Source: a virus. From it: DNA of 22,619 nucleotides. Each line of letters starts with the position of its first letter. Position 1 is the stretch's first letter. Position numbers and translations under genes: made by a program. The notes under the pieces were generated by a model. The model did no database searches, was not told the DNA's origin, and saw only the letters and a list, made by a program, of their open reading frames with translations. Below are positions 1-5,217 of the stretch, in pieces. The stretch spans positions 1-22,619 of IMG/VR virus record IMGVR_UViG_3300029319_000560; one strand, given 5' to 3'.

Positions 1-2
1 GT

Positions 3-101
3 CTTATTGAACTTATAGAAGATGATAATTCTAATAAGTCTTATAGAGCAGTCCTCGCACGGGGAGAGGGTGCATATCTTGTCCCATTGGAGGAATCGTA
101 G
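3..101 (+). CDS. C-terminal end of an unknown protein (partial)
   Basis: An open frame enters from the left edge and stops at TAG 99-101. It gives 32 residues ending in LARGEGAYLVPLEES. The acidic start followed by a short beta-like end looks protein-coding, but there is too little to name a family. The first TTGTCCCAT box (79-87) lies inside its last codons, where it encodes LVP, so the repeat cluster begins within this gene. It could be a chance open frame, since only about 100 bases are visible. Confidence 0.4.
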   Translation, partial: LIELIEDDNSNKSYRAVLARGEGAYLVPLEES

Positions 102-248
102 TCGTACCAATAGATTTCAGTGGGACAACTGTGTGAGACAAAATAGATTGTCCCATTGATTTTGGAGCGTAGGACAACTTTACTTGTCCCATACCTTTGT
201 CCCATACCAAATCAATGTTGTGGAGCGTGATTATAAAGAATGGGACAA
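79..248. repeat. Cluster of TTGTCCCAT boxes, direct and inverted (iteron- or operator-like)
   Basis: The 9-base box TTGTCCCAT occurs exactly at 79-87, 148-156, 184-192 and 197-205 on the plus strand. It occurs exactly inverted (ATGGGACAA) at 240-248. One-mismatch inverted copies lie at 120-128 (GTGGGACAA) and around 170-178 (TAGGACAAC), and a weaker one around 134-141 (TGAGACAA). A second element, TGGAGCGT, repeats at 163-170 and 221-228. The ends carry an 8-base inverted pair, GGGGAGAG at 61-68 and CTCTCCCC at 258-265. Several boxes could pair into hairpins (120-128 with 148-156). The density suggests a protein-binding array such as an operator, a replication origin or a packaging site. Which one is inference. 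Confidence 0.75.
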
Positions 249-303
249 TTTCAGCCACTCTCCCCAGAGAAAACACTTATTAACATCAATACAATCAGAA
301 TCT

Positions 304-390
304 ATGACAAAACAACAAAGAATCGAGGCTGCAAAACAACGAATTGCTGAATTGGAACGATTAATTAAAGCTTGGAAAACAAAAAGTTAA
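304..390 (+). CDS. 28-residue coiled-coil peptide
   Basis: A short open frame MTKQQRIEAAKQRIAELERL... to a TAA stop at 388-390. It is almost entirely charged with a heptad-like pattern (I, A, I, L, L spacing), so a single amphipathic helix or short coiled coil is likely. The frame stays open upstream to an ATG at 184, but that extension runs through the TTGTCCCAT boxes and has no protein-like pattern, so the ATG at 304 is preferred. No clear ribosome binding site is visible. Phages often carry such mini-proteins. Function unknown. Confidence 0.45.
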   Translation: MTKQQRIEAAKQRIAELERLIKAWKTKS

Positions 391-396
391 TACAAT

Positions 397-410
397 GATA
401 ATGTGATAAT
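397..410 (+). promoter_or_regulatory. Possible promoter -10 region upstream of the RHH-like gene
   Basis: TGTGATAAT at 402-410 resembles an extended -10 box, in a very AT-rich 38-base gap before the ATG at 429. A good -35 box at the right spacing is not evident, so this is only a candidate. Confidence 0.25.
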
Positions 411-428
411 ATAAATTTAAAAATATTT

Positions 429-713
429 ATGGCTGAAGCTGGAAAGAAACCTCATGGAAACAAAAAGTATTACCATGTTCTCATAGATATAAATAGAGGT
501 GAATTATTTGATGATTACATTCGTAATAAATTAAAAGTTAAACCTACTTCTTGGATCAGAGATGTTGTTTATAAATTTTTAGAAGACAAGATTGACAAAG
601 AAGTGTATGATGAAGCATTAAAAAAAGACCAGGAAAATTGGAATAGAGCCATTCAAAACCGTTTACAAGGTAGAGCTTTAGCCAAAATTCTTAATTCAAT
701 TAGAAAAAAATGA
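429..713 (+). CDS. Small ribbon-helix-helix-like protein, putative DNA-binding
   Basis: A 94-residue basic protein. Residues 14-20 (YYHVLID) form a likely beta strand. A helix at about 24-36 (GELFDDYIRNKL), a turn with KPTS, and a second helix at about 41-53 (SWIRDVVYKFLED) follow. This strand-helix-helix order is that of ribbon-helix-helix (Arc/MetJ/CopG) repressors. The C-terminal 40 residues are a charged helix (NWNRAIQNRLQGRALAKIL). The family call is by pattern only. It sits about 180 bases downstream of the TTGTCCCAT array, so an autoregulatory role on those boxes is a reasonable guess. Its stop overlaps the next gene as ATGA, implying co-translation. It resembles, from memory, small hypothetical proteins of marine cyanophages. 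Confidence 0.7.
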   Translation: MAEAGKKPHGNKKYYHVLIDINRGELFDDYIRNKLKVKPTSWIRDVVYKFLEDKIDKEVYDEALKKDQENWNRAIQNRLQGRALAKILNSIRKK

Positions 714-1454: not shown

Positions 1455-1883
1455 ATGGCAGAACAAGAGAAAAAAGAACCTGTATTAACAAAAGATCCAA
1501 TCGAAGATGAAAAGCCTGATTATCAAGAAAAAATTACCTTTTTAATTTCTACTATTGCCCAAGCGTTTATTCTAGCTTGGTGTCTATTAGTGCTTTCTCT
1601 AGGATATATAAAACTACCTAACAGATTATTTGGCTTGGATATTCCAGATCAACCTAGAGTGGATAGTACATTTGCTGCTGGACTTCTCGGTAACATTCTT
1701 GGAGGTTTAGGCATTTCGGTTAACGCAGCACAAGGAGCCAAGAAGAAAAAGAAAGAAGATGGAAATGGTAGTAATAGTAACTCTTCTGGTAGCGTTTCGA
1801 CTATAATAATAAAACAGCCACTTGAGATCGTCACATCTAAACCTGACGTTATCAAAGTTGACCCTAATTCATCCAAAAAATGA
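1455..1883 (+). CDS. Small membrane protein, 142 aa, first gene of exported-protein operon
   Basis: Acidic and charged N-terminus (1-26), a strong transmembrane helix at about 27-51 (ITFLISTIAQAFILAWCLLV...), then a conserved-looking loop (IKLPNRLFGLDIPDQPR). A glycine-rich hydrophobic segment follows at about 70-92 (FAAGLLGNILGGLGISV), then a KKKKK patch and a Ser/Asn-rich linker to a polar C-terminus. Two hydrophobic segments and a basic patch could fit a holin-like or membrane-adaptor protein, but I see no proof. It overlaps the next gene as ATGA (1880-1883). From memory, similar sequences occur as hypothetical proteins in marine cyanophages. No Shine-Dalgarno sequence is visible. Confidence 0.75.
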   Translation: MAEQEKKEPVLTKDPIEDEKPDYQEKITFLISTIAQAFILAWCLLVLSLGYIKLPNRLFGLDIPDQPRVDSTFAAGLLGNILGGLGISVNAAQGAKKKKKEDGNGSNSNSSGSVSTIIIKQPLEIVTSKPDVIKVDPNSSKK

Positions 1884-2407
1884 AAAAATTTCTTCCTTTG
1901 CTTTTACTAGCATTTCCAACAGCTAGTTTTGCAGACGTAACACATTCAATCCAATCGGTAGCCTCAGTATCTACTCTGGGAGCATCAGCCACTAGCGAGC
2001 GTATTGCAGGGGCTATAAGTGTTGCTGGTACGAACGTAACACCAAAAGCAAACACAGTAGCTGGTCAAATAGGTTCTCTTGATTTGTCTGATAATGGTAT
2101 TGCTAGTGGTGTTCCAACTATTGATTACGACACCAGCTTCAATATTGTAAATACAGGTGATGCCTTTTCTGTTAGTGAATCATACATTGCAGCAGACGCA
2201 GTACCTAGCTTACTATCTGCCACAGTAACAAATGGGGCAGTTCCATCACTGCCTCTCCTTGGTAAAAACACAGTAGTATCTGGTGGCGATCCTGGTTCTG
2301 TAGCAATCACAATGGATAGTGGACAAGCACTGACGGTTAACCTAGCTGATATGGGTGCTGGTACTACCGCAACGCTCCAATCAACTATTACTCTTGGCCT
2401 CGATTAA
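1880..2407 (+). CDS. Secreted protein with signal peptide, GDAFS-motif family, 175 aa
   Basis: Classic signal peptide MKKFLPLLLLAFPTASFA with a likely cleavage after SFA at residue 18. The mature protein is rich in Ser, Thr, Ala, Gly and Val and has almost no Lys, Arg or Cys, as expected for an extended beta structure. A motif around residue 93 (TGDAFSVSESYIAAD) is shared with the next gene (EGDAFSLTENFMAPG), so the two appear to be paralogues. The stop and next start share an A (TAATG, 2405-2409). The product is predicted to act in the periplasm or outside the host cell. Role unknown. Homologues in cyanophages are recalled, not verified. Confidence 0.8.
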   Translation: MKKFLPLLLLAFPTASFADVTHSIQSVASVSTLGASATSERIAGAISVAGTNVTPKANTVAGQIGSLDLSDNGIASGVPTIDYDTSFNIVNTGDAFSVSESYIAADAVPSLLSATVTNGAVPSLPLLGKNTVVSGGDPGSVAITMDSGQALTVNLADMGAGTTATLQSTITLGLD

Positions 2408-2838
2408 TGAAATGGTGGCTATGTCTGCTTGTTGTTTTTAGTCCAAATGCCTTTGCTGAAACTCCTAGATTTGGTGCGAACCAGATTCAAAGCAACTCAA
2501 GGAGTATTTCAAAAATAGATGAAGTTATTATTACTGAAAACTATAACTCAGGTTATGCGTACTCAGTTACAGGATCTAATATCAAAATCAAAGATGGTAC
2601 TGTTATCTCTCCTGAAGCCACTTACACAACAAGTCAGAATACAGGTAATGCAGGTGCAGTTAATTTTGAATGGATAACACCAGATCTAACAAGCAAACCA
2701 CAGTGGGAGATCGTTTCAGAAGGAGATGCCTTTTCTCTAACAGAAAACTTCATGGCTCCTGGTTTAGACGCAGTAAGCATAATAAATCGAACACAAACAA
2801 TAGAAACAACACAAACTTCTACAACCTTATTTCAATAG
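2407..2838 (+). CDS. Secreted protein with signal peptide, paralogue of the preceding gene, 143 aa
   Basis: Signal peptide MKWWLCLLVVFSPNAFA with a probable cut after AFA at residue 17. The mature part is Ser/Thr/Asn-rich and beta-like, and carries EGDAFSLTENFMAPG near residue 105, matching the motif in the upstream gene, followed by a Thr-rich end (TIETTQTSTTLFQ). The last part of the reading frame overlaps a different frame that encodes the third exported protein. Start by TAATG coupling. The tight packing of three signal-peptide-like genes suggests their products work together at the envelope. Function unknown. Confidence 0.75.
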   Translation: MKWWLCLLVVFSPNAFAETPRFGANQIQSNSRSISKIDEVIITENYNSGYAYSVTGSNIKIKDGTVISPEATYTTSQNTGNAGAVNFEWITPDLTSKPQWEIVSEGDAFSLTENFMAPGLDAVSIINRTQTIETTQTSTTLFQ

Positions 2839-4986: not shown

Positions 4987-5217
4987 TTAGAGTTTAGGGA
5001 GAGATTTAGTAGGTATAGATGGTCCTGTTACGTCAGGTAGACCTTTATCTAATACTTTCGGCATCAGTCCAGATACGTTACCCATTATCTCTTTCATGAC
5101 TTGGTTTTTAAAATTCTCAGATGTTAAATACTTGTAACCGAAGTACGCTCCACCACTCATGGAAGCTACCATTACAAATGAAACAATACTCAGAATTTGA
5201 CAGATGCGGTTTAGCAT
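4987..5217 (-). CDS. Small membrane protein, 76 aa
   Basis: One transmembrane helix at about residues 8-28 (ILSIVSFVMVASMSGGAYFGY) is followed by an amphipathic stretch (SENFKNQVMKEIMGNVSGLM) and a Pro/Ser/Lys-rich tail (GPSIPTKSLPKL). It is probably a single-pass envelope protein. No ribosome binding site is seen. Its start overlaps, head to head, a possible short plus-strand membrane peptide. It lies in the same minus-strand set as the 180- and 217-residue membrane proteins. From memory, similar proteins occur in cyanophages. Function unknown. Confidence 0.65.
   Translation of the reverse strand: MLNRICQILSIVSFVMVASMSGGAYFGYKYLTSENFKNQVMKEIMGNVSGLMPKVLDKGLPDVTGPSIPTKSLPKL

Follow-up and report, generated by a model that had tools for sequence, protein, structure and literature searches.

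What does a dense cluster of short repeats do at the end of a phage primase-helicase gene, and which protein reads it? The question is raised by the left end of the window, the 22,619-base IMG/VR contig analysed here. A first-pass annotation had described at least five exact 9-base boxes and two to three near-exact copies at 61–265, in both orientations, together with a second repeat present twice and a flanking inverted pair. It had set this array apart from ordinary coding DNA, likened it to iterons or clustered operators, and suggested the product of 429–713 as its binder.

The dense array is real, and it is more ordered than was first seen. The 9-base word TTGTCCCAT occurs exactly five times (79+, 148+, 184+, 197+ and 240−), with a single-mismatch copy at 120−. 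The whole window holds 12 matches, compared with a mean of 5.1 and a maximum of 11 in shuffles, and six of these lie within 170 bases. Eight TGTCCCA-type boxes (six exact and two with one mismatch) make up the core at 80–247, in the order + − − + / − + + −, which is a mirror image about the array centre (Table 1). The eight-box layout placed at position 80 has 2 mismatches in 56 positions; the next-best site in the window has 29, and the minima in 20 shuffled windows were 28–31. The flanking inverted pair, GGGGAGAG and CTCTCCCC, is symmetric about the same centre as the boxes, and is extended to CCTCGCACGGGGAGAGG ... CCCCCCGCACGAGG in relatives of the L154 type (L denotes a locus in our collection). 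The second repeat, TGGAGCGT, is also present twice; the place of the copy between boxes 7 and 8 is kept in relatives, and L139/L141 and relatives of the L154 type have a left-hand copy (TGGARCGKGATT) between boxes 1 and 2. The separation from coding DNA had to be corrected, as box 1 falls within the 3′ end of the primase-helicase gene. An antisense open reading frame at 31–276 is probably spurious, because the length differences of the central spacer among relatives are not multiples of three. The array has no match in Rfam.

Table 1 Features of the repeat array and its surroundings (window coordinates)
Feature	Position	Strand	Basis or remark
Primase-helicase gene, 3′ end	3–101	+	last 32 codons (3–98) and stop (99–101); body beyond left edge
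Left outer arm GGGGAGAG	61–68	+	inside primase gene; exact inverted pair with 258–265
Box 1, TGTCCCA	80–86	+	layout fit
Box 2, TGTCCCA	121–127	−	layout fit
Box 3, TGTCTCA	134–140	−	layout fit, relatives; degenerate in window, exact in L139–L141
Box 4, TGTCCCA	149–155	+	layout fit
TGGAGCGT element, copy 1	163–170	+	repeat in window
Box 5, TGTCCTA	170–176	−	layout fit, relatives; degenerate in window, exact in L139–L142
Box 6, TGTCCCA	185–191	+	layout fit
Box 7, TGTCCCA	198–204	+	layout fit
TGGAGCGT element, copy 2	221–228	+	
Box 8, TGTCCCA	241–247	−	layout fit
Right outer arm CTCTCCCC	258–265	+	exact inverted pair with 61–68
AT-rich flank, candidate DNA-unwinding region	266–428		
Small ribbon-helix-helix/RelB-antitoxin-like protein, usually downstream	429–713	+	weak DUF6290 and RelB matches

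The gene in which the array begins is represented in the window by its last codons, where residues 679–710 of a 710-amino-acid protein from a relative (L116) align by tblastn with 90.6% identity. In relatives, this primase-helicase has significant Pfam matches to PriCT_2 and AAA_25 and a weak match to Prim-Pol, and its N-terminal part is primase-like. Its best match among solved folds is the RSF1010 RepA hexameric helicase (1nlf, E = 3 × 10−10). An AlphaFold model of the full-length protein, of moderate quality (pLDDT 77, pTM 0.44), predicts a C-terminal winged helix composed of helices 633–643, 651–655 and 664–676 followed by two strands, in which 664–676 is the predicted recognition helix. 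Nothing closely related to the primase turned up in the collection of phage isolates, where the best matches were 23–29% identical over 27–40% of the protein. Immediately upstream of the primase, in divergent orientation, nearly all loci encode a 200-amino-acid protein (1856–2458, minus strand, in L116) that is possibly a single-stranded-DNA-binding or replication accessory protein.

We collected several hundred related IMG/VR loci using first the downstream proteins and afterwards the primase as queries; the primases of these relatives are 57–100% identical. Wherever a locus extends beyond the primase stop codon, the array is found 3′ of the primase, with some arrays overlapping or sitting within the gene end, and there is no array in loci that have a homologue of 710–988 and lack this primase. 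With a layout-fitting script, one eight-box scheme fits 136 of the 143 distinct arrays. An outer box is separated from a tandem pair by 41–45 nt, the tandem boxes by 12–14 nt and the next box by 14–16 nt (27 in one array); the second half mirrors this spacing, with an inner gap of up to 25–27 nt. The seven arrays that the script left unfitted do not necessarily lack the layout: in two of the three read by hand (L338 and L275), boxes stand at the expected places. In the third, L330, boxes 3 and 6 are both inverted in place with the mirror symmetry retained, and L326 gives the same motif signal.

Box spacing is a conserved property of the array, a point that a comparison of related phages had been proposed to check: in dozens of contigs of the window's own clade it is identical to the base. 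Within that clade, the boxes are 98% conserved compared with 87% for the spacers (P = 3 × 10−12). The layout is kept whether the DNA is coding or not, because the whole array lies within the primase reading frame in L210 and L211, and its first half does so in L147. A search for further boxes, also proposed at the outset, found them concentrated at the array locus in the 20 contigs examined, apart from an isolated exact match or two outside it in G002 and a few others, and with no second array in any of the 20. Among cultured and single-cell viruses, no array above background was seen in the sampled regions of S-CBS4, S-EIV1, Vibrio phage 1.076, MED4-117, P-HS2 and AG-345-A17 (a single-cell virus); the sole above-background signal in the isolate regions sampled was a low-complexity CAGCAGC run in MED4-117. 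A DNA search with window positions 1–300 found no match in phage isolates. One spring-water phage (MW202711, L384) has seven ACGTTCA/TGAACGT boxes spaced by about 15 nt at 5000–5105, within UOF80850, a distant primase/RepA-like gene annotated as repA; they may be repeats in the coding sequence or, as with lambda O, an origin inside the gene.

The box word itself changes in concert between lineages, being TGTCCCA, TGTCCTA, TGTCCCC or TGTCCAG, with TTTCCCA in one locus, and the word tracks a single residue of the predicted recognition helix. Residue 668 is arginine in 99 of 100 arrays with TGTCCCA, TGTCCTA or TTTCCCA, lysine in all 22 with TGTCCCC, and histidine or glutamine in all 21 with TGTCCAG. 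On a tree of the helicase domain, from which the winged helix was left out, box position 7 changed three times and each change coincides with one at residue 668 (two from R to K and one from R to H/Q); a formal sign test needs more than three independent changes. The sister loci L211 (K, TGTCCCC) and L212 (R, TGTCCCA) capture such a switch at about 90% protein identity. Across 757 alignment columns, only 668 and 684 have this convergent pattern, and we set column 684 aside as a specificity position because it is gap-prone and outside the recognition helix. The correspondence has an exception in L210, which combines K668 with TGTCCCA, and the TGTCCTA word arose without a change at 668. Together, the predicted winged helix and the covariation of residue 668 are comparative evidence that the C-terminal domain decides origin specificity. 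Judging from alignments and the structural model, the boxes are apparently read by the primase-helicase's own C-terminal winged helix.

The earlier suggestion that the 429–713 product binds the boxes is very probably wrong; the box word instead tracks residue 668 of the primase-helicase. Copies of the 429–713-type protein that differ at 1 of 107 residues stand beside TGTCCAG in L242 and beside TGTCCCC in L219, so this protein is very unlikely to be the reader; moreover, no homologue appears in over 3 kb of downstream sequence in L208, L210 and L211, where arrays are present. The near-identical copies beside different box words also weigh against the idea that the boxes are clustered operators through which a regulator, either this protein or the primase-helicase as an autorepressor, controls downstream transcription. 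Such a role would suit the small ribbon-helix-helix/antitoxin-like product of 429–713 and the position of the array in the window's clade, directly upstream of the operon start at 429. However, L147- and L154-type loci have other genes in between, L210 and L211 carry the array within the primase gene itself, and a promoter and terminator scan gave no excess over shuffles. An autorepressor would have its primase promoter 2 kb upstream, and a rigid mirror order of eight sites exceeds what operators usually need. We consider control of transcription an unlikely function of the array. The near-identical homologues in L242 and L219, lying beside modules of different specificity, point to recent recombination near the putative origin between phages.

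A stem-loop, rather than the geometry of protein-bound boxes, could be the signal, as in a pRN1-type origin that forms a hairpin or cruciform. The place of the array downstream of a primase-helicase gene matches pRN1 (PMC4234260), and the strand folds better than dinucleotide shuffles (z = −3.9 in the window and −6.7 in L154). This folding tendency is explained by the boxes: when they were kept and the spacers shuffled, the advantage disappeared in nearly all 20 representatives (z mostly −1.6 to +0.7), leaving no large stem-loop beyond the contribution of the repeats themselves, and the hairpin reading is therefore unsupported. The exceptions are L356 (z = −3.9) and L289 (z = −2.3); in the L356 array, unlike in most relatives, single-strand pairing involves the spacers in addition to the boxes. 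The central spacers between the two halves measure 11, 20–22, 31–32, 44, 52–53, 65 and 76 nt, close to multiples of about 10.8, a fit equalled by 20 of 20,000 random sets; the test is supportive rather than exact, because the seven length classes depend on one another to some degree. Spacers that vary yet stay in helical phase suit a bound protein rather than a stem-loop, and we regard a hairpin origin as very improbable. Symmetric multi-site arrays are also found at centromere-like and recombination sites, and a partition, packaging (cos/pac) or recombination site would account for the symmetry. The terminase gene, however, is about 12 kb from the array in a 42.5-kb contig with direct terminal repeats (DTR), no partition or recombinase gene was found adjoining the array, and the box word follows the primase-helicase; a site of this kind is equally hard to credit.

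Of the two readings offered at the outset, an iteron-like origin is best supported. As at a classical iteron origin, the short words are clustered and concentrated at one site, and the covariation suggests the identity of the initiator. We think it likely that 61–265, with its core at 80–247, is a phage replication origin bound by the winged helix of the upstream primase-helicase, because the array is primase-linked, apparently self-read, symmetric, in helical phase, AT-flanked and concentrated at one locus. We propose that the C-terminal winged helix of the primase-helicase would contact each 7-base box, and that the boxes form two inverted four-box half-sites on one face of the DNA helix. 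Two sets of subunits may then come together as head-to-head hexameric helicases that open the AT-rich DNA alongside and prime bidirectional synthesis; the two inverted half-sites suggest that two helicase rings would be loaded in opposite directions. The flank to the right of the array is about 75% A+T, compared with 56% for the array and 65% for the window. It is AT-rich on this side only, and there is no unwinding element between the half-sites. Just right of the array, a micro-ORF at 304–390 (plus strand) encodes 28 amino acids (MTKQQRIEAAKQRIAELERLIKAWKTKS) and has 24 distinct conserved variants in relatives. The GC-skew analysis suggested as a check for an origin was run, with AT skew, on two DTR contigs (42.5 and 39.8 kb) and one 39.0-kb contig; it found no turn at the array and no usable signal, and is uninformative because skew follows gene strand. 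The central fibre protein of the tail module is nearest to those of the Prochlorococcus siphoviruses MED4-117 and P-HS2 (30–32% identity), and the phage is best explained as a marine tailed phage, as yet uncultured, whose tail module resembles that of Prochlorococcus siphoviruses.

Several known replicons share parts of this arrangement. The alpha protein of satellite phage P4 is a primase-helicase that recognizes its own ori and crr through short repeats in both orientations, and P4 uses a second, distant site. The present system resembles it in having a primase-helicase, its own putative origin and short repeats in both orientations; it differs in helicase family and in the single site seen in the contigs searched. 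In RSF1010 (RepA/RepB′/RepC, oriV), a separate initiator, RepC, serves the iterons. The helicase described here has the RepA fold and likewise a primase partner, but this partner is fused to it in a single protein that has a predicted DNA-reading domain of its own, and no RepC-like family occurs among the neighbouring proteins searched. Like pRN1 ORF904, a primase-helicase with a C-terminal winged helix and a putative stem-loop origin just downstream of its gene (PMC4234260), it pairs such a domain with a putative origin in that position; unlike it, ORF904 has an SF3 helicase and a stem-loop origin. The passages of PMC7581432 on SaPI Rep–ori and the putative SCCmec Cch2 origin, which cite Ubeda et al. 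2007, describe a helicase whose C-terminal domain recognizes a cluster of short repeats immediately 3′ of the helicase gene, and suggest binding as two hexamers. Here, too, the repeat cluster lies directly downstream of the gene of the putative initiator-helicase. We do not claim membership of the SaPI family because the helicase is of another type: AAA_25 with PriCT_2 and an RSF1010-RepA/RecA fold, fused to a primase, rather than a D5/AAA+ Rep of the SaPI Rep or D5–Primase_Cterm families. A further difference is the rigid mirror arrangement of eight sites, which is conserved throughout the family.

An origin read by its own helicase is of a kind already known; what would be new is such a self-read origin with a RepA-type primase-helicase, an unusually rigid eight-site geometry and a natural recognition series. 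No description of such an origin was found in the literature searched, a coverage that excludes most subscription journals. A fuller account, which we hold in even balance with its negation, is that a RepA-type helicase-primase fusion recognizes its own origin through the winged helix, with opposed hexamers on a phased eight-site palindrome, and that specificity has switched through a single-residue code, in which R goes with TGTCCCA, K with TGTCCCC and H or Q with TGTCCAG, creating mutually blind replicons among co-occurring ocean phages.

The locus would supply an origin and a probable initiator for a phage group that is not represented by any cultured isolate in the phage collection we searched. 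A helicase class believed to rely on separate loaders or initiators would here locate its own origin. The naturally matched box words and recognition residues offer a ready means of testing how specificity for an origin evolves, and how initiator geometry, in half-site symmetry and helical phase, may persist while sequence drifts.
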